Shown here one piece after another: positions 10,566 through 29,711 of a DNA stretch of 64,000 nucleotides (its first letter is position 1; every line of letters starts with the position of its first letter). The notes beneath the pieces were generated by a model. That model was not told the origin of the DNA and made no database searches. It worked only from the letters and a program-made list of their open reading frames with translations. The DNA lies in contig NZ_CP022436.1 in NCBI RefSeq assembly GCF_002224285.1, positions 1,550,001 to 1,614,000 of the forward strand. Reading direction: 5' to 3'. Source of the stretch: Arthrobacter sp. YN (GTDB lineage: Bacteria; Actinomycetota; Actinomycetes; Actinomycetales; Micrococcaceae). A program made the position numbers and the translations under genes.

Positions 10566-11486
10566 CTAAGCCGCCATCGGGACCTGCTGATCAGAGCTGC
10601 CCCGTGTGCCCAACAGCATGCCGGAAGCGCACAACATCGCAGAAGACTCAGCGGAGAGGAGCAGACCCAGGCGGAGGCCGTCGCACGAAGCGGCGTCGCC
10701 GATCGCCCAAATGCCCGGGACGGAAGTCGCGAGGTCGCGCCCCACGGAAATGCCGCCGTCGGACGCCACCGCCAAGCCGGCGCTCTCGGCGAGGTCGTTA
10801 CGGGCCGTGCGTTCCTCGGCAATGACCACGAGGTCGCCCTTCATGCTGCTGCCGTCCTCGAACAGGATGCCAGTGGCCGGCAGGTTGGAGCCCGGCGCGG
10901 CTGCGGCAGTGGAAGCAACAGGAGTTGTGGAAGCGACAGGAGTGGGTTCGGCAATCACCGCAGCGGGGCGAAGGGTGGTCCGGACGGGACGGACTCCACG
11001 GGCACGGAGGACGGCCTCTGCCTGGCCCGCGGCAGGCCCACTGCCCACCAGGATTCCGAGGGGACGGCGGCCCACCATCCTCGTGACCTCCTTGACGGCT
11101 TCACCGATGGTGGCGGCGTCGTCGATGGTGGAGTAGCTCAGGCCGGATTCGGCTCCGGCTACGGGCGGGAGGGAAGGGGCAGAACCGGTGGCGATGACCA
11201 GTTGGTCGTAGGAGAATTCCAGGCCATCCACTGTGGTGACCATTTTGGCGTCGGAGTCGATGAAGCTGGCAGGCTGCCCGAAGCGGACCGAAACCTGGGG
11301 GAGCTCGGCGAGTTCCAGCAAAGCGTCCGGGCACTCATCGCGGTTACTGAGGACGGTGATGGTTCCATCGAACGCGCGTTGCCGGGAGTCTGACCTTCCC
11401 GCAAGCCGCCGCACCAAAGCCTGGGCGGCGGGACCTGCGCCTGCGATCACGATGTGGACGGAGGGTGCGGACGGGGTGGAGGACAT
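10566..11486 (-). CDS. Short FAD/NAD(P)-dependent oxidoreductase, NirB N-domain-like
   Basis: 306 residues from the ATG at 11486. The first dinucleotide fold is HIVIAGAGPAAQALVRRLAG, the FAD-contacting segment is YDQLVIATGSAP, the second fold is LGILVGSGPAAGQAEAVLRA, and a C-terminal FAD motif reads GIWAIGDAASCDG. The order matches the FAD domain of nitrite reductase NirB and related reductases, but the protein is about 100 residues shorter than usual. A low-complexity Pro/Thr/Ala stretch (EPTPVASTTPVASTAAAA) sits after the second fold, where the NAD-binding half should continue. Electron acceptor and substrate unknown. It may be a reduced paralog. No neighbour shares its strand closely enough to form an operon. 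Confidence 0.7.
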   Translation of the reverse strand: MSSTPSAPSVHIVIAGAGPAAQALVRRLAGRSDSRQRAFDGTITVLSNRDECPDALLELAELPQVSVRFGQPASFIDSDAKMVTTVDGLEFSYDQLVIATGSAPSLPPVAGAESGLSYSTIDDAATIGEAVKEVTRMVGRRPLGILVGSGPAAGQAEAVLRARGVRPVRTTLRPAAVIAEPTPVASTTPVASTAAAAPGSNLPATGILFEDGSSMKGDLVVIAEERTARNDLAESAGLAVASDGGISVGRDLATSVPGIWAIGDAASCDGLRLGLLLSAESSAMLCASGMLLGTRGSSDQQVPMAA

Positions 11487-11642: not shown

Positions 11643-12998
11643 TCAGTATCGGCGCAGGAACTCGCGGAAACCGTTCCCCGTGAAGCCTGCCACCGCGCCT
11701 GCGCGGTCCACGAGTCCGTGGGCGCCCACGGGTTCAACGGAAGCCAGAAGGCCGCCGGCATCGGCCAGGCTCATGGTCAGATCGGTAACCAGTCCACCCA
11801 CTTCCAGCCTGGCTCGCCGCGAATCCGCCCAGGCATCCGGTCCCGGGTCATCGCGTAACGTGCGGGTCACCACAAGACTCTGCCAGCCGCCGTCGACCCT
11901 TATGCGGGCACGGTAGGTGACGTCGTCGCCGTGGGTCTCTACGCGCCCGCCCGCCAGGAAGACCCGCCCGAACCGGGAGTGTTCCAGATAGCCACTGAGC
12001 TGCGGCGCTTCGTCCCCGGGATCGGAGGGAAGGACCACCGTGGCTTTGAACGTCACGGGCGATCCGTCCAGTTCGCCCCGGAGCGTGTCGTTGATGCGGA
12101 CACCCGGCGCAGGTTCTGTCATCGCCGTGCAGTTGGCATCCTTGGCCAAGCCGGCGTCAGTCATCGAATCGAGGTAGGCTCGGGCGTCCCTGTAGCCCAT
12201 GCCGATCAGCGTATCGGCGTCGATCCTGCCCAGGTAGAACTCCGGATCCAGAGGAAGGGGATGCCGGGGACGGACTACGTGCAGCACAAAATCGCGACCA
12301 GCGGCGTCGGCAGCATCGAAATCAGCCAGGAGGGCGCCCATGGCACTCATCTCGATCATGTGCACGTACTGTTCCAGCGGTCCGTCGCCCCAGTAGGGCG
12401 TATTTCCGATGCACCAGACCAGCCACACTTCGTCGGCCCCACGCCGCAGCGCTTCGGCCACGTTGGCGTCCCTGATCCAGACGGCGTCGGTCCAGACCTT
12501 TCCGTCCCGGCGCAGGGGCGTCAGGAAGATCGGAAGTGACATGCCGGCAGCCATGAGCCCGGCATCAATGTCCGTGGCGTCGATGGCGTGGCAGCGCTTC
12601 CCGGTGAACTCCACCACGTTGAAGGAACCCTCGACGGCGTCCGGTTCCGCTGCGCGGGCCCGGATGGTGGCGTCGTTGATGCCCAAGGCGGGGAAGACCT
12701 TGCCGAGGATCCCGTCCGCGTCGCCAACGGCGGGCAACGACCACGGACCCTTGAGATAGTCGCCCACGGGCAGTGCTGAGCCGAAGTCCTTGACGTCGAC
12801 GCCCGACCACCGGGCACACATTTCCTCCGGCGAGACGCCGGAGAGAATCATGCCGGCCGTGAGGATCCCGCCGGAGGTGCCGTCAACGTGCTGGAATTCC
12901 AGGCCTTCCTCGGTGAGCGCCTTCACCACTCCGGCCTGCCAAGCCACCCGCATGCCGCCACCGGCGAGGACCAGGGAACGCTTTGCCGTGTGTTTCAT
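11643..12998 (-). CDS. Patatin-like phospholipase with C-terminal beta domain
   Basis: 451 residues; the ATG at 12998 overlaps the stop of the gene before it (ATGA), which fixes the start. The patatin core occupies about residues 1-290: oxyanion loop LAGGGMRVAWQAG, nucleophile serine in DGTSGGILTAG (GTSGG in place of the usual GxSxG spacing), and the dyad aspartate in WTDAVWI, where the family normally has Asp-Gly. The remaining 160 residues (from about RINDTLRGELDGSPV) are a separate strand-rich domain I cannot name. The family hydrolyses acyl esters of lipids. As the last gene of a seven-gene coupled operon it probably acts on the same lipid or steroid-like substrate as its partners. Confidence 0.78.
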   Translation of the reverse strand: MKHTAKRSLVLAGGGMRVAWQAGVVKALTEEGLEFQHVDGTSGGILTAGMILSGVSPEEMCARWSGVDVKDFGSALPVGDYLKGPWSLPAVGDADGILGKVFPALGINDATIRARAAEPDAVEGSFNVVEFTGKRCHAIDATDIDAGLMAAGMSLPIFLTPLRRDGKVWTDAVWIRDANVAEALRRGADEVWLVWCIGNTPYWGDGPLEQYVHMIEMSAMGALLADFDAADAAGRDFVLHVVRPRHPLPLDPEFYLGRIDADTLIGMGYRDARAYLDSMTDAGLAKDANCTAMTEPAPGVRINDTLRGELDGSPVTFKATVVLPSDPGDEAPQLSGYLEHSRFGRVFLAGGRVETHGDDVTYRARIRVDGGWQSLVVTRTLRDDPGPDAWADSRRARLEVGGLVTDLTMSLADAGGLLASVEPVGAHGLVDRAGAVAGFTGNGFREFLRRY

Positions 12999-13471
12999 CC
13001 TGCCAGCCCGCTGTTGGCAGGTGCGGCGCTGAGACGGCGCCAATAGATGAAGAGGACAATGCCGGTTGCGAGGTCAAAGAAGGCCACCAACAGAGCAACG
13101 GGCGCGAAGACACCATTGAGGACGCCGATGCCCACGGCCCCGAACGCGCCGGTTTTCTGGAGCCCGGACCACAGCACCACTTCCGGGGAGGGAACAGCGT
13201 TGAGCAGGGTGTGGAGGAGCAGTCCGCCGACCACCACCATGAACATTCCCACAGTGCCGAAGAGTTGGCGGGTTTCAGGGGTGGAGTCCGCGCCGATGAG
13301 TTGCAGGACTTGCCCGCCAAACGGGACTTGCACGGCTCCGGTCAGGACGGTAATGACGGCGATGACCGCGAGCACGGCGCGGAGGGGATCGGCCACGGCC
13401 CAGGCAACGGTGCCGGGCGGGTGTGTTTTTCGGGGGTGGCGCCCCGAGTGTGCCGGCTGGTGCGCGGTCAC
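12995..13471 (-). CDS. Four-helix membrane protein of the GMC-patatin operon
   Basis: 158 residues from a GTG at 13471 that overlaps the stop of the preceding gene (GTGA); its own TGA overlaps the patatin ATG. After a polar, His-rich N-terminus (about 25 residues) come four hydrophobic segments: LRAVLAVIAVITVLTGAVQV, LFGTVGMFMVVVGGLLLHTLL, AVGIGVLNGVFAPVALLVAFF and an ending IVLFIYWRRL. I recognise no family. Its place between a second small membrane protein and soluble lipid-active enzymes suggests a membrane anchor or transport subunit. The open frame extends upstream to 13975, but that part overlaps the neighbour and is not coding here. Confidence 0.72.
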   Translation of the reverse strand: MTAHQPAHSGRHPRKTHPPGTVAWAVADPLRAVLAVIAVITVLTGAVQVPFGGQVLQLIGADSTPETRQLFGTVGMFMVVVGGLLLHTLLNAVPSPEVVLWSGLQKTGAFGAVGIGVLNGVFAPVALLVAFFDLATGIVLFIYWRRLSAAPANSGLAG

Positions 13472-13950
13472 GCGTAGGACTCCAGCAGCCGGCCGCGGTC
13501 CACCAACAGCCAGACCATGGCGGCCCAGGTCAGGGTGGAGACGTAGAAACGGATGTCGTTGAGCATCATCCAGCGTTTGAGCAGCGACCGGAGCTCGGCA
13601 TCGTCCGCGAAGTCGCCGCCACGGATCCGGACGTTGATGGGGATGATGATCCCTTGGCCCACCCAGGTCAGGACGATGATTCCCAGCAGGCAAATGATGG
13701 CGGGGATGACCCGGACGGTTCCCCATTCGGACCACACGAGAATGCCGCCGGAGATGAACATGACGGGCACCACGATGGTGAAAAACTTGGTGGCAGCCCG
13801 GGTGGGGATGCCGAAGTGCATGTCCACGTTGTCCCGGGCCAACGATTCCCAGGTGGGGTAGAGGAAGAACTTGAGGACCCACATGGTGCCCACATACATG
13901 GTGGCTCCGAAGAGGAAGTAGAGGGCGTTGAGCAGGAGCAGCCAGTTCAC
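13468..13950 (-). CDS. Four-helix membrane protein of the GMC-patatin operon
   Basis: 160 residues from a GTG at 13950, again as GTGA with the stop of the gene before. It starts in a helix (NWLLLLNALYFLFGATMYVG) and has further helices at about 60-80 (FTIVVPVMFISGGILVW), 85-110 (PAIICLLGIIVLTWVGQGIII) and 135-155. A loop with NVDMHFGIPTRAATKFF lies between helices 1 and 2. The layout recalls DUF1772-type four-helix proteins, but this is only a shape resemblance. The coupled translation with both neighbours argues for a stoichiometric complex. No catalytic residues can be assigned. Confidence 0.72.
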   Translation of the reverse strand: MNWLLLLNALYFLFGATMYVGTMWVLKFFLYPTWESLARDNVDMHFGIPTRAATKFFTIVVPVMFISGGILVWSEWGTVRVIPAIICLLGIIVLTWVGQGIIIPINVRIRGGDFADDAELRSLLKRWMMLNDIRFYVSTLTWAAMVWLLVDRGRLLESYA

Positions 13951-14930
13951 TGGGCACCACCACGGGGGCCGGCACTTGGTGCGGCAGCGCCCGGGATCCG
14001 GCTCCGGTCCGGTGGTGCCAGCCATTCCTGCCCTTGGCCCAGGTCCACCACGCTGTCCATCATGTCCCCGCCGCGAAGGGCCACGGCCTCCAACTGGGTG
14101 GGAGCAGTGAGGAACCACGCTTCGTAGTGGTCATCCAGGACCCCGTGGGCTTGGGGCAGCCAGGCGGTGAACACCGGTTTGCTCTCTACTTGCAGGTCCT
14201 TTAGAGGTTCGACGCCGGGCGCGTCACCGAGGATAAGACGGGCCTTGGCCTGGGCGCCGAGGGCGATGTCCCCGGTGGCTTCGAAGTAGATGTCCGATTT
14301 CCAGAGCATGTTCCGGAACACGCAGTAGTTGGACGCGGCAAGTTTGAGGGGAAGCTGGGTTGCCCCTGGTGCCGCCGGCCGTTCAATTTCGATGTAGCAA
14401 CCCAACTGGCCGTCCTTGTCGTATTGGGCTGACACGGTGGTGTCCGTAACCACGAAGTCCAGGTTGGCCTGGTGTTTGGGCATGCCCCAGATTCCTTTGC
14501 CCCCTTTGACGGAGACTTCGGAACTGACGGGCAGGTCCACCACGAACTGGCCGAGCTTGAACGTTTTTTGGAAAAGCAGCGGAAGGATGGGCGGGGCAGG
14601 CCTGCTGCCATGCGTGATGGCGATGGCCAGGGAGTACTCGATGTACTTGCCGATGTCCGTGGATTTGTAGTTGACCACTGTCACCACCAGCAGCCCTTTG
14701 CCGCCGAGGGTGAACGGCCGCATTTCCGAACCGGGGAGTGCAGCGGCGGCTGCGCGCTTATTGATGGGGAAGGCCGCCATCAGCACCGGCGAGTCATCGG
14801 AATTGACCGGCATGACGTATTTGATCCCGTCCGCGAACGCATGCTGCCCGCGAAGCCGTTCCTGCCTCCGCGGAACAGGTGACGGGAGGAGCTTGAGCAA
14901 GGGTACGGCCAGTTCGGTGAGGTTTTTCAT
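13947..14930 (-). CDS. Acetoacetate decarboxylase-like protein
   Basis: 327 residues; the ATG at 14930 overlaps the hydrolase stop (ATGA). The central region reads like the acetoacetate decarboxylase (ADC) family: LVVTVVNYKSTDIGKYIEYS, then GIWGMPKHQANLDF, where the lysine after MP corresponds to the Schiff-base lysine of ADC. In true ADC the next residue is a second lysine that lowers the pKa; here it is His, so decarboxylation is not assured and other imine chemistry is possible. The C-terminal third carries ADC-like strands and a proline-rich end. There is no signal peptide. Context: third enzyme after the GMC oxidoreductase, which suggests it works on a keto product made upstream. Confidence 0.75.
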   Translation of the reverse strand: MKNLTELAVPLLKLLPSPVPRRQERLRGQHAFADGIKYVMPVNSDDSPVLMAAFPINKRAAAAALPGSEMRPFTLGGKGLLVVTVVNYKSTDIGKYIEYSLAIAITHGSRPAPPILPLLFQKTFKLGQFVVDLPVSSEVSVKGGKGIWGMPKHQANLDFVVTDTTVSAQYDKDGQLGCYIEIERPAAPGATQLPLKLAASNYCVFRNMLWKSDIYFEATGDIALGAQAKARLILGDAPGVEPLKDLQVESKPVFTAWLPQAHGVLDDHYEAWFLTAPTQLEAVALRGGDMMDSVVDLGQGQEWLAPPDRSRIPGAAAPSAGPRGGAQ

Positions 14931-15982
14931 GGCTTCGACTCCGGGGTTCGGTTCAGTTCGTCGACGATGATGGGGAAGGTGTCCTGCCAGGCGTGCTCGC
15001 CGAAGAAGACGTCCAAGTGGCCGTAGCCGGGGATGAGGTGGAGTGAATCCTTCCCGGGGCGGTGCTTCTGGAAGAATTCGTAGGTGCGTTGCTGGCTTTC
15101 GGGCAGGAAGCACAGGTTGTCCAGACCAGCGATGAACGCGAACCTCGCATCGGTCTGCGGGGCTTCGGCCACCAGGTTGTCCGGCAATTCCGGATGCTCG
15201 CCGGCGGCCACCATGTGCCCGGCTTTGATGCTGCGGCCCATTTCCTCGAAGAACGTCACGGGCACCTCGGCGAACTCGCCGGTGAGCCATTGGTGGGTGG
15301 CGTCGTCGAGGTTCTCATGGGACCAGAGCGCGGGGCGGCCGCTGCCGTAGGTGAAGCTGACCATCTTGCAGACGGTGTTGTCGCATTCATGGTGGGTGGC
15401 TTTGACCAGGCCCCGGATGGCCCGGGTGAAGTAGCCCTGGGACTTGTACCCCCACGCCGGCGACAGGTACGGCGTGAAGGCTTTGACCACGGGCGTGAGG
15501 TAGTTGATTTTCAGCCGCGAGAACGCCGGCACGACGGGGTGCAGGGACACTGCGTTGGACACGATGGTGTCCACCTGCGGCAGCAGCCCCGCCACGGCCG
15601 ACATCGTGAACGACGTAGAGCCCTGGCAATGGATCACGGCTTTCATGGTCTCCGCGCCGGTAGCATTCAGGACGTGCTCGACGGCGGACGGATGGTCATA
15701 CACGGCGGCGTCGGCAAGCGTCCAGGACAGGGGATCAAGGTCGATCGATGCCCGCCAGTTCAGCATCCAAACATCCCAGCCGTCTTCGAGGAGGACATCG
15801 ACGATGGTGGTGCGGACCGGCGGCCTGAACAGCTCGGCCCGCACTCCGGAACCGTGAACCAGAATTACCGGCCCTTTGACCGCTTCAAGGGGTGAAGTGA
15901 CGTGGACCAGGCTCAAGGGCGTGTTGTCCCGGGCACGGAGAGGAATGACCTCGGTCCTGTGCTCGGCACGGGTGATGGTCAT
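14927..15982 (-). CDS. Alpha/beta-fold hydrolase
   Basis: 351 residues from the ATG at 15982, overlapping the stop of the phosphoesterase gene (ATGA). It starts MTITRAEHRTEVIPLRARD. The oxyanion segment is GPVILVHGSGVRAELF, the nucleophile serine sits in AVIHCQGSTSFTMS at about residue 122, and the catalytic His is in IPGYGHLDVFFG near 325. The sequence resembles the hydrolase half that follows GMC oxidoreductases in some cholesterol-oxidase-like proteins, which agrees with the GMC gene two positions upstream. Probable role: ester or lactone hydrolysis of an oxidised lipid or steroid. Cytosolic; no signal peptide. Confidence 0.82.
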   Translation of the reverse strand: MTITRAEHRTEVIPLRARDNTPLSLVHVTSPLEAVKGPVILVHGSGVRAELFRPPVRTTIVDVLLEDGWDVWMLNWRASIDLDPLSWTLADAAVYDHPSAVEHVLNATGAETMKAVIHCQGSTSFTMSAVAGLLPQVDTIVSNAVSLHPVVPAFSRLKINYLTPVVKAFTPYLSPAWGYKSQGYFTRAIRGLVKATHHECDNTVCKMVSFTYGSGRPALWSHENLDDATHQWLTGEFAEVPVTFFEEMGRSIKAGHMVAAGEHPELPDNLVAEAPQTDARFAFIAGLDNLCFLPESQQRTYEFFQKHRPGKDSLHLIPGYGHLDVFFGEHAWQDTFPIIVDELNRTPESKP

Positions 15983-18027
15983 GGGGTGCTTCCCTTCCGT
16001 GCGATGGTGATGGGTTCTTCAAGCAGCCGCACGGCAGGCAAACCGGTCACCGGAACCAGCCGCGCGCCGTCGTCGTTCGCTGCCAGGTGCCAATCACGGC
16101 AGACGGTGTCCACCATCAGCGGGTAGACAGTGAGGTTGGCGTCGGACGAGAGGTGGATGCGGAGGAAGCCTTTATGGTCCTCGATCGCCTGGCCGGACAT
16201 TTTCCACGAGGCCACCTCGCCGCTGGGCGTCGCCAGGATGTACAGGGCGAAGGCCTCGCTGCCCAGTGCCCACCCGCCCAGATGTACCAAGGCAAGCACC
16301 AGGAGCAGGATCACGACGTCCGGCCAGCTCGCCGGCCAAGGAACCAGGATCACGACGGCGGTAGTCACCGCGAGTGCGGACAGTTGGTACAACGCGCCGC
16401 GGGCGAAAACGACGATGCCCTCCTGGCCCACGCCCAACGAACGCGCGAGCAATGAGGCAACCGCCAGGAGGAGCGGCCCTGCAAGGATCAGGACAATGAC
16501 AAGTACCGGGGTGTCTCCGCGGGTCAGGCTGCGCAGGCTGTCCACGAATCCTTCCCCGCGAAAGGCGCTGAAGACCGTCCACAGCGTCAGGGCGGCCACC
16601 ACATGCATGATGCCCAGCGATAGTCCGAAACCGGGGTTGCGGATGGGGAGCCAGAACTGTGAGAAGGGGTTGGCCAGTTGCGGGCCGAGCAGGCGGGAGT
16701 CCCCTTGGCCGGGGAATGTGGTGGGCGTGCGGGCGAAGATGCGGCCTGTGCCTGTCTGTTGTGTGGCTGTTTGTTGTGTGCCCGACTGCTGTGTGTGCCG
16801 CACGCTGGATGATTCACCGGGAGCGGCCGAGTCGGCAGGCAGGGTGAGATGTTGCGGCAGCCCGTGGGTATCCGAGAGGTACGCGCCGCCCAGCCCGCAG
16901 GTGATCATCTGGGTCCTGCCCGGATCCGTGGTCTGGTGCTGGTTGGGGGAGTGATTTTGGGAAGGGGCGTCCTCATAGCGGGAGTAGTGGTGGAGATCTC
17001 CGGTGAGCCAGAGCCTGACGCTGGCACCCGTGGCGTCGAACAGGCCCGTGTCAGGGTTGAAGCGGCGGCGCAGGTAGTCCTGCTCGAAGAAGTTCACCTG
17101 CCGGAATTCACCCCACCCAGGTTGAGTGGCGTCAACCCAGAACGGTGCGGCGACGCAGAGGATGATCGCATCGCCGGGCTGCAGTTGCAGAGTAACGTTC
17201 CGGTAGAAATAGTCCAGTTGAGGTTCGTCGATGTACTGCCCCAATTGGCTGTCCAGGCCCAGCAGCCACCAGCCGGGGGTGCCGTTCCGGCCCGGTCCGG
17301 GAGGGGTTCCGGTCAGCCGGACGGCAAAGTAGCTCCGGTTTTGGATGGTCCGCCAGCTTCCGATGCTCCGTTGCCTGGTGAACACCCGGATGAATGAGGT
17401 GAGGCCGTCGTACCAATCGTGGTTGCCGGGAAGCGCCAGCATGACCGGAGGCGCGTTGTGGGGTCCGCCGGGCGCGGCGTCGGCGCTTCCCGGGGCGCTG
17501 AGCGGGCCTCGCAACGCAGGTGGGAATGCCGTCCGGTATGGGCCCGCCATGCGGTTCTCGTATGCGGCTGGGGACGCCACCGGGTAGACCTCGTCCCCGC
17601 CAAGGACCAGCACCCTGCCGCGGGGAAGTTCATGCCCGTCCACCGTCAGCGTATCCTGGGCCAGCAAGGACGCCACTGTGTAGGTGGCGTCGAAGCCATC
17701 GCCGAGGTCGGCCGTGAAGTCGAGCCACATCTCCGTTGCCGCCGGAGTCACTGCGCGCTCATCCTCGAGATCGGCAGGCGAGGGAAGCCCACGGCTGCTG
17801 GCAACGGGTTGCGCCGGTTGGCCCGGGACGGGAAGTTTGTCCAAGCGCAGGGGGTCCGCCGGAAAGCTGCCCTCAAGCTCGCGCTTATCGCCAAAATCGG
17901 CAAAGACCGTGGCCGCCGCGACCTTCAACGCGGTTCTGGCCAAGGACATGGGCGAGAGCCAACGAACCGCCGTCTGGGGTGTGAAGCCCAGCGCGGCATG
18001 GTGTTTCGCGAGCTCCCGGCTTTTCAT
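15979..18027 (-). CDS. Membrane-anchored metallophosphoesterase
   Basis: 682 residues from the ATG at 18027 (ATGA with the GMC gene stop). Calcineurin-like motifs in order: a degenerate first motif FTADLGDGFDAT, then VLGGDEVYPVAS, ALPGNHDWYDG at about residue 200, and LTGDLHHYSRY at about 345. The last replaces the usual GHxH, so metal coordination may differ from standard family members. From about residue 460 there are four or five membrane helices (GIMHVVAALTLWTVFSAF, PVLVIVLILAGPLLLAVASLL, ALAVTTAVVILVPW, PDVVILLLVLALVHLGGWAL), then a soluble tail. A Gln/Thr-rich linker (TQQSGTQQTATQQTG) separates the two halves. Substrate unknown; a lipid phosphate fits the operon. Confidence 0.8.
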   Translation of the reverse strand: MKSRELAKHHAALGFTPQTAVRWLSPMSLARTALKVAAATVFADFGDKRELEGSFPADPLRLDKLPVPGQPAQPVASSRGLPSPADLEDERAVTPAATEMWLDFTADLGDGFDATYTVASLLAQDTLTVDGHELPRGRVLVLGGDEVYPVASPAAYENRMAGPYRTAFPPALRGPLSAPGSADAAPGGPHNAPPVMLALPGNHDWYDGLTSFIRVFTRQRSIGSWRTIQNRSYFAVRLTGTPPGPGRNGTPGWWLLGLDSQLGQYIDEPQLDYFYRNVTLQLQPGDAIILCVAAPFWVDATQPGWGEFRQVNFFEQDYLRRRFNPDTGLFDATGASVRLWLTGDLHHYSRYEDAPSQNHSPNQHQTTDPGRTQMITCGLGGAYLSDTHGLPQHLTLPADSAAPGESSSVRHTQQSGTQQTATQQTGTGRIFARTPTTFPGQGDSRLLGPQLANPFSQFWLPIRNPGFGLSLGIMHVVAALTLWTVFSAFRGEGFVDSLRSLTRGDTPVLVIVLILAGPLLLAVASLLARSLGVGQEGIVVFARGALYQLSALAVTTAVVILVPWPASWPDVVILLLVLALVHLGGWALGSEAFALYILATPSGEVASWKMSGQAIEDHKGFLRIHLSSDANLTVYPLMVDTVCRDWHLAANDDGARLVPVTGLPAVRLLEEPITIARKGSTP

Positions 18028-20723
18028 TGCTTTGACGTGAACGGGAACGGGACACGTCTGAGGCCCTGCCCGTAGACCTGCCAGAGTTCGCCGGCGAACA
18101 GCTTCCCGAAGGTCACCAAGCCTGCGGCCGGGGCCGGTCCTTCGGCCCGGAACGTGGTGAGTTGCCTGGCGAAGTCGAGAGGCCGGATGTAGAGGATGCC
18201 GGCGCCAACGACGCCTGCTTGGGCAGCGCCGCTTGCAGCAGGCTGTTCGGTATCCGGCGGCACAACATCCGGCGGCACATGGCCACGGAGGATGGTGGCG
18301 TACAGGGTGGTGGTGTCCGCCCAGAGGTCGGAACCAGCCTCGTTATGGATCAGTTTGTGCCCGGTGAAAGTGAACGGCGTGCCGCCCGGGTCCCGCAGCC
18401 ACAACCGGTAGAGCATGCGCCTGGCTGGTGCGCCGTCGTCGGACGCGTCCTGCACAAACAGATTGAACCAGCCCCGCTCTACCGGCATCCGGCCACCAAA
18501 GTAGTCCGCCAGGACGTAGCCCTCAGCTTTAGCCGGGTGGTTCGGATCGGTCGCGAACGCCTCCATGTCCTGGGCGATAATGGTCAGCTCGAACATGATC
18601 TTCCGGCTGCGGTCCCGGCCCAGGCTCCGCCCCTTTTCCGGATCGGTGATGCCGGGACTGAACCAACCGTGCATCTGCTCGGTGAACCGCACGGACGTGG
18701 TCTCCTGATCAGGAGCGTCGGGAGCGCCAGGCCTGCCGAGCCCGCGGCTGCGCACCTGAGGCATCTCAGACACTGCGCTCGCAGGCTGTTCCTCTGGTGC
18801 CGCCTTGCCCTTGGTAGCGTCCGGCGCCAACGCGCGCGGAGCGGATGCACCGACATCGACGACGGCGCCGGCTGCCTCCCGCTCAACGGCCACCTTTTCA
18901 CTGGGCCCGCCGGAGCCCTCCGCATCTTCCGGACGGATACCCCGGTGACGCGCCTTGTCCGCGTTCTCGATGATGTGGGCGCAGGTACGTTCTGCGAACG
19001 CCGCGATGGTCAGGGATGGGTTGGCGCCCACCGGACCAGGCATCGCGGCTCCATCAACCACGAATAATCCCGGGTATCCGAACACCTCGCCATACGAATC
19101 GCAGACTGCTTCCCCCGGATGACGGCCGGAGGGGGCTCCTCCAATGGGGTGAACCGTAATGACGCGCTTGGCCCACCACAGGGGGTTGTCAATGAAGTCC
19201 CCGTCCAGGTCCTTGGAAATCGCCTCCATGGTTTCGCGGACGCGGCCGAAGTACTCCTTGGACGTCGCCATGGTCCAGGCGATGGCCAGCCTCCCGTCGC
19301 GAAGGGTCATGACGCCGTCGGGAATGTCCCTTCCCATTCCCAGCAGGGGCACCGAACTGGACGACAATCGGCCGTCGCCCAATGCTGCGGCGAGGTCGGC
19401 GGATACGTTGGAACGGCCGGCGTCGAACAGCCTGTCCTTGAGCAGCTGCCCGGCCACTTTCACGGTCCGCTTCATGGTGGTGCGCAGCTGGGCTGTTTCC
19501 ATGAGCCAGTTCATGAAAGCCGGATACCCGGCATCCTCCACGTAGTAGCCGCGACCATCGCCGTCGTCGTCGTTCGAATCCGGGACCCTGATGGCTGTGG
19601 TGATCACGGGGCCGCGACTGCCGGTCAACGTGCGGACACCCGGGCGTGAGCCGTTGGCCGGGGGAGTCTTGGCGCCCATGATGAACGTCAAAAGGTCGCC
19701 GTTGCCGCTGAAACGGGTGCCCAGGGCGTCGCTGAGCGCCGGAAGTGAGCCACGGTTGCGGAGCAGGAGGAAGTTGGTGCCGAACGTGCCGGCACCCAGG
19801 ATGAGCCGGCGGCAATGGATGATGCGCTCTGTCAGAAGTTCGGCGTGGCGATCCGGGTGGTGCACCACGTAGCGGACTTCATAGCCACCGCCCTGCGTCC
19901 CAGAGTCCAGGGGCCGGATACCGCGGACGTCGTGGAACGTTCGGACGTCGGCACCCCTGAAGGCCGCTGCTGAGACGTAGTTGTGGTCCAGCGTGTTCTT
20001 GGCGCCGGCGTTGCATCCGATGTCGCATTCACCGCTGAGCGTGCAGGTGGTCCGCACCGTGGCGGGACCGTGGATGCTGCCGTAGCCGGGCAGGGGCAAA
20101 GCGTGATTGGTCAGCGGCTCCGTGTCAGGCGCCGCTGAGAACGTGACCGCAATGGGGGGTCGGGTGATGGACAGTCCCAGATTCGCGGCGGACTTCTCCA
20201 TGGCAAGGGTCTTCGCGGTGTCCTTGTAGGGGTACGGGACAGGCTGCAGCATGGCTTCGGCGGCATCGTAATAAGGATCAAGGTCAGCCCGGGTGAAGGG
20301 CCAGTTCTCGTAACCACCGCCGGGGATGGGGGACTCGTTCACGAACCACTTTTCGTCCTTGCGCAGGAGGACATTGGCATAGATGAGTGAGCCGCCGCCC
20401 AACCCGCTGGACACCAGTCCCTCCGTGCCGCGGAACGTCCAGGCATCAAAGAGTCCGTACAAGCCGCGGTCCGGATCCCAGAAGTTGCGGCCCATCTCCG
20501 ACGGCGAGCGCGCGAAGCTGCCCGGCGGGTACGGTTTGCCCCGCTCCATGAGCACAACGGACTGTCCGGCCTCGGCCAGTCGAAGCGCCGCAACGGAACC
20601 TCCAAAGCCGGAGCCCACCACCACGGCGTCGACTTTTTCGATGCCACTGCCACGGTGGCGTGGCGGATCAGACGCGGGCTCAGACCCCGCATCCCCACTG
20701 TTCCCGGTCCCCAGACGACCCAT
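18024..20723 (-). CDS. GMC oxidoreductase, cholesterol-oxidase-like, with C-terminal extension
   Basis: 899 residues from the ATG at 20723, with GAGGA 6 bases before it. FAD binding: VDAVVVGSGFGGSVAALRLAEAG at about 28-50, then GLGGGSLIYANVLLR. The GMC C-terminal signature is at about 535-600: TVHPIGGAPSGRHPGEAV, VFGYPGLFVVDGAAMP and GANPSLTIAAFAER. Known cholesterol oxidases of this class end near here. This protein adds about 300 residues: a low-complexity Ala/Glu linker, then a compact domain (FTEQMHGWFSPGI to GQGLRRVPFPF) that also occurs in long bacterial members. It is the first gene of a coupled seven-gene operon. The reaction is probably oxidation of a hydroxyl on a hydrophobic substrate; the sterol itself is not proven. 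Confidence 0.85.
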   Translation of the reverse strand: MGRLGTGNSGDAGSEPASDPPRHRGSGIEKVDAVVVGSGFGGSVAALRLAEAGQSVVLMERGKPYPPGSFARSPSEMGRNFWDPDRGLYGLFDAWTFRGTEGLVSSGLGGGSLIYANVLLRKDEKWFVNESPIPGGGYENWPFTRADLDPYYDAAEAMLQPVPYPYKDTAKTLAMEKSAANLGLSITRPPIAVTFSAAPDTEPLTNHALPLPGYGSIHGPATVRTTCTLSGECDIGCNAGAKNTLDHNYVSAAAFRGADVRTFHDVRGIRPLDSGTQGGGYEVRYVVHHPDRHAELLTERIIHCRRLILGAGTFGTNFLLLRNRGSLPALSDALGTRFSGNGDLLTFIMGAKTPPANGSRPGVRTLTGSRGPVITTAIRVPDSNDDDGDGRGYYVEDAGYPAFMNWLMETAQLRTTMKRTVKVAGQLLKDRLFDAGRSNVSADLAAALGDGRLSSSSVPLLGMGRDIPDGVMTLRDGRLAIAWTMATSKEYFGRVRETMEAISKDLDGDFIDNPLWWAKRVITVHPIGGAPSGRHPGEAVCDSYGEVFGYPGLFVVDGAAMPGPVGANPSLTIAAFAERTCAHIIENADKARHRGIRPEDAEGSGGPSEKVAVEREAAGAVVDVGASAPRALAPDATKGKAAPEEQPASAVSEMPQVRSRGLGRPGAPDAPDQETTSVRFTEQMHGWFSPGITDPEKGRSLGRDRSRKIMFELTIIAQDMEAFATDPNHPAKAEGYVLADYFGGRMPVERGWFNLFVQDASDDGAPARRMLYRLWLRDPGGTPFTFTGHKLIHNEAGSDLWADTTTLYATILRGHVPPDVVPPDTEQPAASGAAQAGVVGAGILYIRPLDFARQLTTFRAEGPAPAAGLVTFGKLFAGELWQVYGQGLRRVPFPFTSKQ

Positions 20724-20871
20724 GGCCGTTCCTCTCAGAGGAGAGCTGACTACATAGCTGCAGCTGACGGCGCCGGGTGTGGCCGGGCGATGCCTCCGCG
20801 GACTATGGGGCTTATGTTCCCACCGGGCAGGGGATCTGTAAATGAGGTGGAGTACTTGGGTTCAGAGTGCG

Positions 20872-23716: not shown

Positions 23717-24133
23717 TTAGGTTGTCGTGAGGTCGCTGTAGAGGGTTTGGACGCGGGTTTTGATGTCGTCGCGGACCAGGCGCATGCGATCCATGCCTTC
23801 GATGCCACGTTCTGAGGGTTCGTCGGTTTCCCAGATTTCGAAGCGTTTCCCGGTCGGTGGGTCGAGTTTGGCTTCGGTTCCGAGAACGATGACGGCGTCC
23901 ACGGTGTTGAGGACTTCGTCGGTGACCGGTTTGGGATACTCGCCGGTGACGTCGATGCCCAGTTCGGCCAGGGATTCCACGGACTGGGCGTTCAAAGCCG
24001 CGCCGGGCTTTGTTCCGGCTGAGTAGACGGCGACGTCATCCCCGGCCAGTTCTCGCATGAGAGCTGCGGCGAGCTGGGATTTGCCGCCGTTCTTGCTGCA
24101 GACGAACAGGACGGCGGGATGTTCTGAGGTCAT
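23717..24133 (-). CDS. arsC: ArsC-type low-molecular-weight phosphatase, mycothiol-dependent class
   Basis: 138 residues from the ATG at 24133, which overlaps the stop of the gene before (TAATG). The P-loop reads LFVCSKNGGKSQLAAAL: cysteine followed by five residues and lysine, where the phosphatase family has arginine. A C-x-x-N-G-G-K loop is known from actinobacterial arsenate reductases that use mycothiol and mycoredoxin. The general-acid region is LGTEAKLDPP. The enzyme would reduce arsenate to arsenite through a mycothiol adduct. It is the last gene of the minus-strand ars operon. Confidence 0.83.
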   Translation of the reverse strand: MTSEHPAVLFVCSKNGGKSQLAAALMRELAGDDVAVYSAGTKPGAALNAQSVESLAELGIDVTGEYPKPVTDEVLNTVDAVIVLGTEAKLDPPTGKRFEIWETDEPSERGIEGMDRMRLVRDDIKTRVQTLYSDLTTT

Positions 24134-24789
24134 TAGAGTGCGGCTTCTTTCGTCAGGGAGGCGACCAGGTTCTTAACACGGTCGTGGATTTCATCGCGGA
24201 TGGTCCGGACGGTGTCGAGGGGCTGGTCAGCGGGGTCGGTGAGTTCCCAGTCTTCGTAGCGTTTGCCGGGGTAGATCGGGCAGGAGTCGCCGCAGCCCAT
24301 GGTGATGACCACGTCGGAGGCTCGGACGACGTCGTCGGTGAGCGGTTTGGGGTATTCCTTGCCCAGATCCAAGCCCATCTCGTTCATAACTGTCACCACG
24401 TTGGCGTCGAGTTCTGATGCGGGCAGGGACCCGGCGGAGCGGACGCGGATTTTGCCTTTGGCTTCGACCGTGAGCAGGGCCGCGGCCATTTGGGAGCGGC
24501 CGGCGTTCTGTACGCAGACGAACAACACCTCCGGGATCTCCGAGGCGAGGGAGCCCTTTGACTTGGCCAGGGCGTGGAGCCTGTCGTTGGCGAAGTGCTC
24601 GGTGGTCGCGGGCAGGTAGGCGCTGACCTTCGCGGTTCGGGCCAGTGCGGTGTAGGACTCGAAGACGTAGCGCTCGACGGTTTCTGCGGCGAAGATCCCT
24701 GCGTAACGTCCGGCGAGCCGGTCACTGATGCGGTGGAGTACTTCGGTGTTGTCCTGCAGGCCCAGCGTGGTTTCCTGGTGGTCGGTCAT
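24133..24789 (-). CDS. arsC: Arsenate reductase with N-terminal helical domain
   Basis: 218 residues; the ATG at 24789 gives the sensible start MTDHQETTLGLQ, although the frame is open to 24999. Residues about 14-75 form a helical bundle (HRISDRLAGRYAGIFAAETVE) found in front of many actinobacterial ArsC proteins. Then comes a phosphatase-like domain with P-loop [17 protein letters not shown] and the acid loop [18 protein letters not shown], whose cysteine fits the redox relay of thioredoxin-coupled ArsC. It reduces arsenate to arsenite. It lies between arsO-like and the other arsC in one operon; a thioredoxin reductase gene in the same operon could support turnover. Confidence 0.9.
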   Translation of the reverse strand: MTDHQETTLGLQDNTEVLHRISDRLAGRYAGIFAAETVERYVFESYTALARTAKVSAYLPATTEHFANDRLHALAKSKGSLASEIPEVLFVCVQNAGRSQMAAALLTVEAKGKIRVRSAGSLPASELDANVVTVMNEMGLDLGKEYPKPLTDDVVRASDVVITMGCGDSCPIYPGKRYEDWELTDPADQPLDTVRTIRDEIHDRVKNLVASLTKEAAL

Positions 24790-24823
24790 GACAGTGCTCC
24801 AATGGGGGGTTTGGTGACTGGCT

Positions 24824-26209
24824 TTAGTTGGTGGTGCCGGATCGGCCGTGTGCGAGCCCGGTCGGGAAGCCGACGAATGCCGGTTCTGGCGTGGAGCAGC
24901 AGCCTGACTCGGGCTCCTGCGACGCGGTGGTGACAGGGGCGGGAACGTCGCAGCTGGTACCGGCGTCCGCGGAGCAGACCCCCGTTTCGGGCAGTTCAAG
25001 GTGGACGGTGTCCGCTGATTCCTGGTCGCCGGCGAGGGCTGCGGCGACGGAACGGACTTGCTCGTAGCCGGTGGCGAGGAGGAAGGTCGGTGCCCGGCCG
25101 TAGGACTTCATCCCGACGATGTAGAAGTCTTTTTCGGGGTGGGCCAGAACCTTCGCGCCGTGCGCCGGGACCGTGCCGCAGGAGTGGAATTCAGGGTCGA
25201 TCAGCGGGCCGAGCTCGGTGGGGGATTCAACGGCGGGGTCCAGGTCCAGGCGTAGTTCCCGCAGGATCTCCAGGTCCGGGCGGAAGCCGGTGCAGGGGAC
25301 GATGACGTCGGCGTCGATGGTGCGTCCATCGACGGCTTCGACGCTCACGTGCGAGTCGAGGTTTTTCAGGGCTGCGATGCCGAACCCGGTGTGCAGTTCG
25401 ATGGTGCCGGCTTCGACCAGGCGGCGGAGGCGGGAGCCGAGCTGGCCGCGTGCAGGGAGCCCGTCGGCGTCACCGCCGCCGTAGACCTTCTCGGCGGAGT
25501 TGCCGCGGACGGCCCACAGGATGCGGGTATCGGGTTCGTCCTTGGCGAGGTCTGCGAGGTTGATCAGGGTGTTCGCTGCCGAGTGGCCGGCCCCGACGAC
25601 GAGGGCGCGGCGGCCGGCGAAAGCGGCGCGGTCGCGGCCAATAACGTCGGGCAGGGGCGAGGAGATCCGGTCAGCTGCCGTGCTCTCGCCGATGGCGGGC
25701 AGGCCGGAGGTGCCGAGCGGGTTGCGGGTGGACCAGGTGCCGGAGGCGTCGATGACGGCAGCGACGGTGTGGTCCCGTGTTTCTCCGCCGTCGTGCTCAA
25801 CCCGGACAACGAAGGGGGTGGTGTCACGGTCCCGGACGTGGGTTTTGTCCATGCCCTGCCGGGTCACGGCGATCACACGGGAGCCAGTCTGGAGCCGGGA
25901 AGCGATCTGGGGTGTACCCGCCAACGGGGTGAGGTAGTTGTCGATGAGTTCGCCGCCGTAGGGCAGTGCGGTGGGGCGGGGTGATTCCCAGCTGGTGGGT
26001 TCGAGCAGGCGGACGGCGGCGTCGTCGAGGTTGAACCGCCAGGGGGAAAACAGCCGGATGTGCCGCCATTGTTCGATGGCGGCACCGGCGGTGGAGCCGG
26101 CTTCGAAGATGACCGGTTCGAGTCCGCGTTCGAGCAGGTGGGCCGCGGTGGCGAGTCCTACCGGGCCTGCGCCGATCACTGCTATGGGAAGGTTCGTCTC
26201 TGAATCCAT
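24824..26209 (-). CDS. ArsO-like flavin monooxygenase/oxidoreductase
   Basis: 461 residues from the ATG at 26209, with AGAGGA 5 bases upstream; a second ATG six codons earlier has no site. FAD fold: IAVIGAGPVGLATAAHLLE. Second fold: RRALVVGAGHSAANTLINL. Segments EQWRHIRLFSPW, IDASGTW and IVPCTGFRPD are typical of class B flavin monooxygenase-like proteins carried in ars operons and called ArsO. The C-terminus ends in a cysteine-rich tail (GVCSADAGTSC, then ESGCCSTPE) that could bind arsenite or another metalloid. Its exact chemistry is not established. Confidence 0.8.
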   Translation of the reverse strand: MDSETNLPIAVIGAGPVGLATAAHLLERGLEPVIFEAGSTAGAAIEQWRHIRLFSPWRFNLDDAAVRLLEPTSWESPRPTALPYGGELIDNYLTPLAGTPQIASRLQTGSRVIAVTRQGMDKTHVRDRDTTPFVVRVEHDGGETRDHTVAAVIDASGTWSTRNPLGTSGLPAIGESTAADRISSPLPDVIGRDRAAFAGRRALVVGAGHSAANTLINLADLAKDEPDTRILWAVRGNSAEKVYGGGDADGLPARGQLGSRLRRLVEAGTIELHTGFGIAALKNLDSHVSVEAVDGRTIDADVIVPCTGFRPDLEILRELRLDLDPAVESPTELGPLIDPEFHSCGTVPAHGAKVLAHPEKDFYIVGMKSYGRAPTFLLATGYEQVRSVAAALAGDQESADTVHLELPETGVCSADAGTSCDVPAPVTTASQEPESGCCSTPEPAFVGFPTGLAHGRSGTTN

Positions 26210-26251
26210 GCTGTCCTCTTGTTTCATCCGTTAGTGAGGCGTTTCGAGTGG

Positions 26252-27241
26252 TTAGGCGTGGGTTGGTTCTTCGACCAGGGCCGTGGCGATGCTGTCCGCA
26301 TCATCCAGGGCGGCAAGGAACCGTTCGGCATCCAGCGCGGCCGCGCAACCGGTTCCGGCTGCGGTGATGGCTTGGCGGTAGCGGTGGTCCACGGCGTCCC
26401 CGCAGGCGAAAACGCCGGAGAGGTTGGTGACTGTGGTAGGTGAGTCGACCTTGATGTAGCCCTCATCGTCCAGATCGACCTGCCCTTGAACCAGCTCGGT
26501 GCGGGGCAGGTGGCCGATGGCCACGAAGATCCCGGTGGCGTCCTGTTCACGGGTTTCACCGGTGCGGGTGTCCGTGAGGGTCACGCCGGTGACTTTGCTG
26601 TCGCCGTGGATCGTGGTGATGGCCGAGTTCCAGGCGAAGTTGATCTTGGGGTTGTCCTTGGCGCGCTGGGCCATGATCCGGGAGGCGCGGAGTTGGTCCT
26701 TGCGTACCACGACGGTGACGGTCCTGGCGAAGCGGGTCAGGAAGGTCGCTTCCTCCATGGCGGAGTCTCCACCACCAACCACAATGATGTCCTGTTCACG
26801 GAAGAAGAAGCCGTCACAGGTGGCACACCAGGAGACGCCGTGCCCGCTGAGTTTCTTCTCTTCCGGAAGCCCGAGCTCCTTATAGGCGGAACCGGTAGCG
26901 AGGATGACGGCCGGGGCCTCGTGAGTCTCGCCGCCTCCAGTGACCACACGCTTGAGGTGACCCTTCAGATCAACTTCAGTGACGTCGTCGAACACTATCC
27001 GGGCGCCGAACTTTTCCGCCTGTTCCTGGAGCCCATCCATGAGTTCAGGACCTTGGATGCCGCCGGGGAAGCCGGGGAAGTTCTCGACTTCAGTGGTGTT
27101 CATCAGCGCGCCGCCGGCGGTGACCGACCCGGCCAGGACCAGCGGGTTCAGGCCTGCGCGGGCGGCGTAGATCGCCGCGGTGTAGCCGGCGGGGCCGGAG
27201 CCGATGATGATCAGTTGCTCGGTCTTGACGTCGGTGCTCAC
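26252..27241 (-). CDS. trxB: Thioredoxin reductase
   Basis: 329 residues from the ATG-type start at 27241. FAD site: [19 protein letters not shown]. Redox-active pair CATC in [13 protein letters not shown] at about 135-140. NADPH fold: [21 protein letters not shown]-terminal FAD motif: [24 protein letters not shown]. All are canonical for TrxB, which keeps thioredoxin reduced with NADPH. It is embedded in the ars operon between an arsC and arsO-like, 31 and 42 bases from its neighbours, so it is probably dedicated to recycling the arsenate reductases. A housekeeping copy would be expected elsewhere. Confidence 0.95.
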
Positions 27242-27272
27242 GTGAGACTCTCCTGGTGCTCGAAAATGTGGG

Positions 27273-27695
27273 TTACTTGGCGGCCGGGACGAGGGAGGCG
27301 ATCAAGCCCTCGATGCGGGTCTTGATTTCATCGCGGATCGGGCGGACGGCGTCCACGCCTTGGCCGGCGGGGTCTTCCAGGACCCAGTCTTCGTAGCGCT
27401 TGCCGGGGAAGTATGGGCATTCGTCGCCGCATCCCATGGTGATGACAACGTCGGATTCCTTGACGGCCTCGGTGGTGAGGACCTTGGGGATTTCAGCGGA
27501 CATGTCGATGCCCAGTTCGGCCATGGCTTCGACGGCGGCCGGGTTGACCTTGTCGGCGGGCTGGGAGCCGGCGGAGCGGACTTCGATCTCACCCTTGCCA
27601 AGGGTTGTCAGGAACGCTGCGGCCATTTGGGAACGTCCGGCGTTGTGGACGCAGACGAAGAGGACGGAGGGCTTCTTGATGGTTTCGTAGCTCAC
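27273..27695 (-). CDS. arsC: Arsenate reductase ArsC, thioredoxin-type
   Basis: 140 residues; I choose the GTG at 27695 ([15 protein letters not shown]) because AGGAGA stands 7 bases upstream, although the frame is open to 27779. The P-loop is [17 protein letters not shown]. The acid/redox loop is [23 protein letters not shown], with the two extra cysteines used for disulfide relay. It is the first gene of the operon arsC-trxB-arsO-arsC-arsC, read leftwards from a promoter near 27.8 kb that overlaps an ArsR-like operator. Closely related to the C-terminal domain of the arsC ending at 24133. Confidence 0.92.
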
Positions 27696-27802
27696 GGGTT
27701 TCTCTCCTGGAATGGTTGTTGAACGGGTGGCTGGGTTTGAAGCGGTGCGCCCGAGCGCGAAGCTCTTCGTAGCGAACATTGATGATGGTCGATATAGCGA
27801 GT

Positions 27803-27834
27803 ATCGGACGATAGATTGATGAATGTCAATATTG
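27803..27834 (-). promoter_or_regulatory. ArsR operator over the arsC-trxB operon promoter
   Basis: The 16-mer ATTGATGAATGTCAAT (27815-27830) is a palindrome with ATTGA and TCAAT arms and recurs exactly at 29329-29344. Read on the minus strand, the promoter TTGACA, 18 bases, GATACT overlaps it and points at the arsC starting at 27695. An ArsR dimer here would cover the -35 hexamer. Confidence 0.72.
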
Positions 27835-27851
27835 CAATTGCTGCCAGATGG

Positions 27852-28526
27852 TCAGGCGGCGGTGATGCGTGGCGCGAGGTCGTTGATGCGGCGGGTGATG
27901 TCATCGAAGGCGTGGTCAAAGGCAGCCGCCGTGTCCAGGCGGAGGGGATCCGGCACGGACCAATGGATTCCGCCCAGCCCGGTCAGTTCTTCGTGGGCGT
28001 TGTCGCAGACGGTCACCACCAGGTCGGCCTCCTCCGCAACCTCTTCCAGGGTGCGCGGTGCGATGTCGGGCAGGTCCAGCCCATGACGTCGGGCGGTCTC
28101 GATGGCTCCGCGGGCGATGCGGTTTGCGGGGCGCGTTCCGGCCGAGGCTGAGGGGATGCCGCTGACCTGCCGCCAGAGGGCGGTGGCCAGCTGGGAGCGG
28201 GCACTGTTGCGCGTGCAGACGAACAGGACACGGCTTGCTGTATGTGCCGCCCCGGGTACGAGCCCACTGAGGGCGCCCGTGGCGAGGCGGAGGTAGCTGC
28301 GGCGCTTGTCGGCTTCGGAGCGGTGGCGGGTTGCCAGCCCGGCGTCCTCCAGCGTGCGGAGGTGGTGGGAGAGCAGGTTGGCGGGCATGCCCAGTTCGGC
28401 CTGCAGTTCCGATGGCGAGAAGTCGCCCAGGGTCAGCAGGTCCATGATGCGCAGGCGTGCCGGATCGGCAAGGGCTGCGTGCCTGGCTACCCGGGCCTGG
28501 AATGTGTCGACTGCTTCAATATTCAT
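27852..28526 (-). CDS. ArsR-type repressor fused to ArsC-like phosphatase domain
   Basis: 224 residues from the ATG at 28526 (MNIEAVDTFQARVAR). Residues 1-90 are an ArsR/SmtB winged helix: LADPARLRIMDLL, the recognition region MPANLLSHHLRTLEDAGL, and the wing RHRSEADKRRSYLRL. The usual metal-site C-x-C in helix 3 is missing (DFSPSELQAEL has no cysteine). Residues about 110-220 are a low-molecular-weight phosphatase domain with an intact loop, LFVCTRNSARSQLATAL. The domain may have become the sensor. Divergent from the aquaporin gene 27 bases away, so it probably regulates both sides. Such fusions are known in Actinobacteria, but their signal is unclear. Confidence 0.85.
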   Translation of the reverse strand: MNIEAVDTFQARVARHAALADPARLRIMDLLTLGDFSPSELQAELGMPANLLSHHLRTLEDAGLATRHRSEADKRRSYLRLATGALSGLVPGAAHTASRVLFVCTRNSARSQLATALWRQVSGIPSASAGTRPANRIARGAIETARRHGLDLPDIAPRTLEEVAEEADLVVTVCDNAHEELTGLGGIHWSVPDPLRLDTAAAFDHAFDDITRRINDLAPRITAA

Positions 28527-28535
28527 TGATTCAAT
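28516..28535. promoter_or_regulatory. Possible operator between the ArsR-ArsC fusion and the aquaporin
   Basis: The 27-base divergent gap and the first codon of the fusion gene carry overlapping inverted repeats: TCAAT-ATTC-ATTGA (28516-28529) and ATTGA-T-TCAAT (28525-28535). They use the same half-sites as the two perfect ars operators but with a different spacing. Binding here would repress both divergent genes. Confidence 0.45.
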
Positions 28536-28553
28536 TTTGACTGAGGTAATTCC

Positions 28554-29312: not shown

Positions 29313-29328
29313 TCCCGCCGGCCTAAAC

Positions 29329-29357
29329 ATTGATGAATGTCAATGTTGCGGCATAAT
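29329..29357 (+). promoter_or_regulatory. arsR promoter and operator, probably leaderless
   Basis: ATTGATGAATGTCAAT (29329-29344) is identical to the operator near 27.8 kb. It contains a -35-like TTGATG; CATAAT at 29352-29357 is the -10. Initiation 6-7 bases later coincides with the arsR ATG at 29364, so the transcript may have no leader. Confidence 0.68.
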
Positions 29358-29363
29358 AGGTAG

Positions 29364-29711
29364 ATGACCTCGCTGCCCTTGCTCGAACCGGACACGCAGA
29401 CCATCTGCTGCCCGCCAGCTACCCCTGCCCTTGGCGCTGAGGAGGCACAGCGCCGGGCCGTCGTGTTCAAAGCGCTGGCGGATCCCAACCGGCTGCGCCT
29501 GCTCTCCATCGTCAAGGCCGCCGACGGCGGTGAGTCCTGCGTCTGCGACCTCACCGAACCGCTGGATCTGGGCCAACCCACCGTCTCCCACCATTTGAAG
29601 ATCCTGGTCGAGGCCGGTCTGTTGCATCGCGAAAAGCGCGGCACCTGGGCGTACTACTCGCTGGTCCCCGGAGCCCTGGATGACGTCGCCGGAGTCCTCA
29701 CTGCCCTATGA
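29364..29711 (+). CDS. arsR: ArsR family arsenite-responsive repressor
   Basis: 115 residues from the ATG at 29364. The winged helix reads FKALADPNRLRLLSIV, then LGQPTVSHHLKILVEAGLL and KRGTWAYYSLV. The protein has an N-terminal Cys15-Cys16 pair (QTICCPP) and ESCVCDL in helix 3. The combination of an N-terminal Cys pair and a later Cys is the known As(III) site of Corynebacterium glutamicum-type ArsR. It would leave its operator when arsenite binds. It overlaps the following acetyltransferase by 4 bases (ATGA), and an operator overlaps its own promoter, so it is autoregulated. Confidence 0.92.
   Translation: MTSLPLLEPDTQTICCPPATPALGAEEAQRRAVVFKALADPNRLRLLSIVKAADGGESCVCDLTEPLDLGQPTVSHHLKILVEAGLLHREKRGTWAYYSLVPGALDDVAGVLTAL

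Follow-up and report, generated by a model that had tools for sequence, protein, structure and literature searches.

Arthrobacter sp. YN carries a seven-gene operon that begins with a GMC oxidoreductase gene and ends with a patatin gene. We analyzed it within a stretch of 64,000 nucleotides (contig NZ_CP022436.1, positions 1,550,001 to 1,614,000; hereafter the window), and coordinates are those of the window unless another sequence is named. The operon lies on the minus strand, from 20723 to 11643, and its genes were located where the original prediction had placed them. From 5′ to 3′, they encode a cholesterol-oxidase-like GMC oxidoreductase (GMC, 899 aa, 18024–20723), a putative calcineurin-like metallophosphoesterase (MPE, 682 aa, 15979–18027), an acid-lipase-like enzyme with an alpha/beta-hydrolase fold (ABH, 14927–15982), an acetoacetate-decarboxylase-family enzyme (ADC, 327 aa, 13947–14930), two small hydrophobic proteins with GTG start codons (MEM1, 160 aa, 13468–13950; MEM2, 158 aa, 12995–13471), and a patatin-like protein (PAT, 451 aa, 11643–12998). 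A single contig of 5.06 Mb makes up the genome, which has one full copy of the GMC gene and a single copy of ADC. Among the matches listed, the closest protein was that of Paenarthrobacter sp. AMU7, with 95% identity.

The six junctions had been predicted to overlap by exactly 4 bases each. This was confirmed for all of them, the overlaps being ATGA, ATGA, ATGA, GTGA, GTGA, and ATGA in order. An exact 4-base overlap was possible at only 2 of 31 other codirectional gene pairs in the window; the comparison drew on a rough gene call by codon usage, with approximate gene starts, and covered 51 of its 54 genes in the window. The overlaps of the operon are thus far from chance. The same overlap was observed at 73 of 92 junctions across 17 sequences carrying the whole or partial set, a count that includes the window and several close relatives.

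GMC scored 53.6 bits against PF05199 (cut-off 24.6). Its nearest solved structures are cholesterol oxidases (PDB 1b4v, 4u2l, and 1coy), which gave the best PDB match and have the FAD fold and the His/Asn motifs in common with it. The HPLGG histidine and the GxNP asparagine of GMC aligned to 4u2l, and the active-site motif residues His525 and Asn568 were invariant in 14 of 14 sequences. A difference is that GMC scored 202 bits against the cholesterol oxidase model NF058674, far below its cut-off of 850. Another is an added C-terminal domain of about 200 aa that has no Pfam name.

This domain is located in residues 675–899 of GMC (18027–18701, minus strand). A 14-sequence GMC profile was used to collect 80 named loci, which are the best 80 of 571 relatives and not an unbiased sample, and iterative profile searches found the domain in 66 of them. 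None of 54 members matched Pfam at E ≤ 0.01, and the domain profile retrieved no PDB chain at E ≤ 1. A profile begun from the C-terminal part of PAT (11646–12128, minus strand) also found the GMC domain, indicating that the two are related; the patatin part appears to be a reduced version. The domain was fused to patatin in three Streptomyces loci (L075, L078, and L079) and in Cyanosarcina (L072), stood alone in L074, L068, L069, and L081, and preceded ABH within one open reading frame (ORF) in L158. On plasmids of Azospirillum, Rhizobium, Leptospira, and Bernardetia, GMC, the domain, and ABH made up one annotated protein of 1120–1169 aa. As judged from these arrangements, the core of the system is the GMC oxidase, the 200-aa domain, and the acid-lipase-like enzyme. 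Two metagenomic proteins (P0285 and P0318) also join the domain to SRPBCC domains of the Polyketide_cyc2 type, which are associated with lipid transport. On a Rhodococcus pyridinivorans plasmid (L112:11366-13035), a stand-alone copy and ABH lie between a polyketide synthase with a thioester reductase and a crotonyl-CoA carboxylase/reductase.

ABH scored 26.8 bits against PF00561 (cut-off 25.8). When a 32-sequence ABH profile was searched against the PDB, the best matches were gastric lipase (1hlg, E = 1.1e-19; a further gastric lipase match, 3.6e-18) and lysosomal acid lipase (5.4e-15), followed by a putative esterase (2.4e-08) and a polyhydroxyalkanoate (PHA) synthase (6.9e-08). The match to 1hlg was near full-length and aligned the nucleophile elbow and the HLD motif. 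Unlike gastric lipase and lysosomal acid lipase/cholesteryl ester hydrolase (6v7n), ABH has Cys119 in place of the elbow serine and Asn289 in place of the aspartate, whereas His322 and the following Asp324 are kept. The aligned Ser, His, and Asp columns are presumably the catalytic triad of the lipases, and this triad was not found in ABH. Among 71 sequences, of which 3 do not cover the Cys column and 2 do not cover the Asn column, the cysteine was present in 68 of 68, the asparagine in 69 of 69, the histidine in 68 of 69, and Asp324 in 69 of 69. The double replacement suggests thioester or acyl-transfer chemistry. PHA synthase uses a cysteine nucleophile, and ABH resembles PhaC in having a cysteine in the nucleophile elbow of an alpha/beta fold, with a weak profile match. 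It differs from PhaC in that Asn replaces Asp, and it scored 18.6 bits against TIGR01836, far from the cut-off of 365.3.

ABH could be an acyltransferase for the synthesis of an ester or ketone lipid, in which GMC and ADC would serve as tailoring enzymes. The invariant Cys and Asn and the weak PHA synthase matches point in this direction, as does the Rhodococcus plasmid with its polyketide synthase and thioester reductase. The best PDB matches of ABH are hydrolases, however, and no polyketide synthase, fatty acid synthase, or thiolase genes were noticed beside the operon or in ten called loci, where the first 60–70 residues of each protein were read by eye without a family scan. We regard lipid synthesis or modification as possible but rather unlikely. 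Polyvinyl alcohol (PVA) oxidase and oxidized-PVA hydrolase likewise pair the oxidation of a secondary alcohol with an alpha/beta hydrolase. The PVA oxidase is of a different kind from GMC, and the PVA system is not known to include ADC or patatin.

The kinship of GMC with cholesterol oxidase and of ABH with gastric and lysosomal (cholesteryl ester) lipases would suit the catabolism of sterols or steryl esters, in which the acid-lipase-like and patatin enzymes split steryl esters and GMC forms the 3-ketone. KstD-like proteins are encoded elsewhere in the genome (best score 409 bits, cut-off 788), but this search also matched 14 of 14 control genomes and says little. The KstD-like genes are distant from the operon, and no steroid cluster was noticed around them when the first residues of the called genes were read by eye without a family scan. 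KshA_C was not found in the genome by a search that matched 1 of 14 control genomes. With KshA_C absent and the KstD-like genes below cut-off, degradation of the sterol ring is disfavored. The low score of GMC against the cholesterol oxidase model also argues against sterols, and ADC would be superfluous. We consider this explanation quite unlikely. Use of hopanoids was disfavored too, since a search for squalene-hopene cyclase, which matched 2 of 14 control genomes, found none in this genome.

ADC scored 55.5 bits against the acetoacetate decarboxylase family PF06314, above the cut-off of 29.8. Its Pro-Lys motif is retained: Lys152 was kept in 11 of 11 sequences and, when distant relatives were added, in all 20 covering rows of 22. 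We take Lys152 to be equivalent to Lys115 of the clostridial enzyme, the Schiff-base lysine. The residue after it is His, whereas the clostridial enzyme has Lys-Lys. PAT scored 92.4 bits against PF01734 (cut-off 27.7), and its Ser42–Asp171 dyad was invariant in 11 of 11 rows. MPE from the window had no Pfam match, but 10 of 17 family members matched PF00149 at E ≤ 0.01 (best 3.8e-06), and the motifs GGDxVY, PGNHDWYD, and GDxHxY were conserved. Sequence searches of ADC, MPE, and the 200-aa domain against the PDB gave nothing, or one chance match at E = 1.

The two small proteins each belong to a conserved family. MEM1 is DUF1772/anthrone-oxygenase-like and fell just below the PF08592 (Anthrone_oxy) cut-off (24.5 vs 27.3 bits); MEM2 matched no Pfam family. 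A plain hydropathy count gave hydrophobic segments at residues 52–109 of MEM1, 21–145 of MEM2 (about three to four segments), and 467–592 in the C-terminal half of MPE, and none in GMC, ABH, ADC, or PAT. Both small proteins had been predicted to be four-helix membrane proteins. Membrane-type segments were observed in both, and about three to four of them in MEM2, whereas four helices were not recovered for MEM1 at the hydropathy threshold used. They are not duplicates of each other, as no significant BLAST similarity was detected between them (E = 0.78). In a Myxococcaceae metagenome-assembled genome (MAG), MEM2 is fused to patatin.

The phosphoesterase would be accounted for if the operon breaks down a carotenoid, polyprenyl, or other terpenoid lipid with the same enzymes, MPE acting on a polyprenyl phosphate. 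Hydrophobic alcohols of this kind would fit the set, but no carotenoid or prenyl genes were noticed in the called loci, again read by eye without a scan. We consider this quite unlikely as well.

To see how far the set extends, profiles of the other genes were run on six-frame ORFs of the 80 loci, many of whose contigs end nearby. Within the fetched stretches, ABH was found in 60 loci, MPE in 20 (including L059, a weak distant match), PAT in 16, ADC in 12, MEM1 in 11, and MEM2 in 11. All seven occurred together in 10 of the 80 loci, with L059 excluded. These are five Paenarthrobacter/Arthrobacter loci, Streptomyces torulosus, Microbacterium saccharophilum (patatin split across two frames), Glutamicibacter soli, a Solirubrobacteraceae MAG, and the Myxococcaceae MAG. 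Gene order is altered in the two MAG loci, and the taxonomy of the MAGs is possibly wrong. All seven were also found on an Arthrobacter plasmid, with MPE split across two matches, and in genome G254. Each of the 11 loci with MEM1 also carried MEM2, ADC, ABH, and PAT; ADC, MEM1, MEM2, and PAT travel as a block. The set, which might have been confined to this strain, thus recurs in seven named lineages, though in a patchy manner.

ADC was used to estimate frequency. Within the genus, 17 of 101 genomes had it, our own included. Twenty genomes were followed up, namely the other 16 with ADC and 4 of the 84 negative ones. At E ≤ 1e-60 for GMC and E ≤ 1e-10 for patatin, both were found in the same 14 of the 16 ADC-positive genomes and in none of the 4 negatives; in G194 the patatin match lies on a different contig. 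A draw of 396 genomes from the phylum gave 22 matches to the ADC profile at 1e-20, of which 15 were distant (75.8–85 bits) and 7 strong (152–526 bits, our own included). In all six other strong genomes, ADC adjoins GMC or ABH. Two of these loci are full sets, one of them (G597) the same record as L058 and counted once; one has ABH, MEM1, MEM2, and PAT but no GMC within the 15 kb read; one has GMC together with ABH; and the remaining two are fragmentary, either at contig ends or with matches that overlap. In a class sample of 148 genomes, 117 matched GMC at 0.001, and most of the matches listed were GMC-family proteins with 30–42% identity. On this distribution, we judge that the operon is real, old, and patchy.

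Some neighbors of the set were seen in related loci. Two seven-gene loci from other actinobacterial lineages contain an eighth gene matching DUF4345 between MEM2 and PAT (L058:7438-7878 and L156:8128-8619). Clustering of neighboring ORFs gave many shadow ORFs of GC-rich DNA; eight candidates were scanned, and the two most informative represent clusters present in 25 and 21 of the 80 loci, respectively, a LuxR-type (LAL) regulator (L065:5746-8697) and a FAD_binding_4 protein (L066:8058-9995). Both come from Actinomadura-like loci that have only ABH and GMC; the former is a possible control gene and the latter a possible second oxidase of the core.

Upstream of GMC, a promoter-like block of 26 bases (20814–20839, minus strand) ends, on its 3′ side, 91 positions ahead of the GMC start. 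It was kept in seven of seven aligned upstream regions, two of which (L035 and L036) have otherwise unrelated upstream sequence, and its sole exact match in the genome is its own place. The block may act as a promoter or operator. A consensus promoter scan found no sigma-70-type site in either of the stretches scanned, that of the block included, and a terminator scan found one weak plus-strand terminator-like site at 20794–20810. A regulon sharing the block was rejected: the genome has one exact place and one with two mismatches, compared with one match of a control pattern. Just before the GMC start lies the leader GAGGAACGGCC (20724–20734, minus strand), a putative ribosome-binding sequence.

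Two congeners, G191 and G211, have kept no gene of the set but ADC. Its chromosomal location is unchanged, with the oxidoreductase and deoC-like genes as neighbors, and permissive tblastn searches for the other six genes gave no match below E = 0.07. The solo ADC is directly preceded by the promoter-like block, exact to the pattern in L154 and one base off in L153, and by the GMC leader GAGGAACGGCCATG, the same one that stands before GMC in the window. On its 3′ side, sequence related to the stretch downstream of PAT was found (in L154, 87% over 47 bases; in L153, shorter matches). These remnants are most simply read as the outcome of deletions that removed the operon on either side of ADC, one of which could have been guided by the GCCATG that the starts of GMC and ADC have in common. 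Both solo ADCs are intact. The dN/dS between them was 0.23, compared with 0.05–0.10 for four close operon pairs and 0.14 for one more distant operon pair; the solo ADCs are under purifying selection, which is weaker than in operon pairs. This suggests that ADC is useful by itself, although that use may be fading. The original prediction held that the seven proteins are probably made in fixed ratio; the presence of ADC alone behind the promoter-like block of the operon indicated that they are not an obligate stoichiometric machine. The oxidoreductase at this site resembles pyridine-nucleotide-disulphide enzymes (PF07992); in the window it comes after the operon (10566–11486), and it is still in place in both congeners.

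The gene set, its largely conserved order and overlaps, and the one promoter-like block are read directly from the DNA; what we infer from it is the substrate, all of the reactions, and whether they serve breakdown or synthesis. We favor, tentatively, a conserved, modular, and probably membrane-associated operon that frees and oxidizes a hydrophobic hydroxylated lipid. The retained GMC His/Asn, ADC Lys152, and patatin Ser/Asp residues, the linkage of the genes, and the ADC kept alone behind the block in two congeners all count for this reading. PAT and the Cys-type ABH would cleave or transfer an acyl ester, and GMC would oxidize the freed secondary hydroxyl to a ketone with FAD and probably O2. 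Where the product is a β-keto acid, ADC would remove CO2 via its Schiff-base lysine. The 200-aa domain may present the lipid, the small membrane proteins may dock the enzymes or pass on the substrate, and MPE might dephosphorylate a related lipid. As for the substrate, its likeliest class is that of β-hydroxyacyl esters and similar lipids rather than sterol ring systems.

A membrane-bound pathway for a hydrophobic, hydroxylated, esterified substrate such as a sterol had been predicted. The conserved unit is real, three of its proteins have membrane-type segments, and the nearest solved relatives, cholesterol oxidase and gastric/lysosomal acid lipase, fit a bulky hydrophobic ester or alcohol; the use of a sterol is the part that is disfavored. 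Several points weigh against the release and oxidation of a lipid as proposed here. No ADC was found in the fetched stretch of 48 of the 60 ABH loci, some of whose contigs end nearby, so the β-keto-acid route cannot be the core reaction everywhere. The Ser-to-Cys and Asp-to-Asn replacements of ABH may mean acyl transfer or biosynthesis instead of hydrolysis. The scheme assigns no specific role to MPE or to either membrane protein, and MEM1 could itself be an enzyme. Finally, given their higher dN/dS than the operon pairs, the solo ADCs may be decaying.

A bolder proposal makes ABH the founder of a widespread branch of Cys-His-Asn acyltransferases within the acid-lipase family. With the cholesterol-oxidase-like enzyme and a new lipid-presenting domain it would form one unit, which would act on a class of lipids that has yet to be described in bacteria. 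We consider this unlikely.

As the original prediction had proposed, we found no described system with this gene set or enzyme combination, nor such a fusion, in the part of the open-licence literature consulted, which may miss older or subscription work. The same literature gave nothing useful on the ADC active site. The operon is apparently an undescribed, conserved variant of known enzyme families and not a new kind of system; its points of note are the Cys/Asn acid-lipase relative, the domain without a Pfam name, and the natural reduction to ADC. Given its retention as a unit in several actinobacterial lineages, and in one myxobacterial MAG, the set must have some specific function. It ties uncharacterized parts, namely the Cys/Asn acid-lipase relative, the mobile domain, the phosphoesterase with membrane-type segments, and the two small hydrophobic proteins, to enzymes of testable chemistry, and of the whole set it is the ADC-family decarboxylase to which the two natural one-gene remnants draw attention. 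An anti-phage defense system was rejected, as none of the seven proteins matched PADLOC at E ≤ 0.001. Elsewhere in the window, the region 23717–29711 resembles an arsenic-resistance region, with arsenate-reductase-like, ArsR-like, and aquaporin-like proteins, as judged by eye from the gene call.

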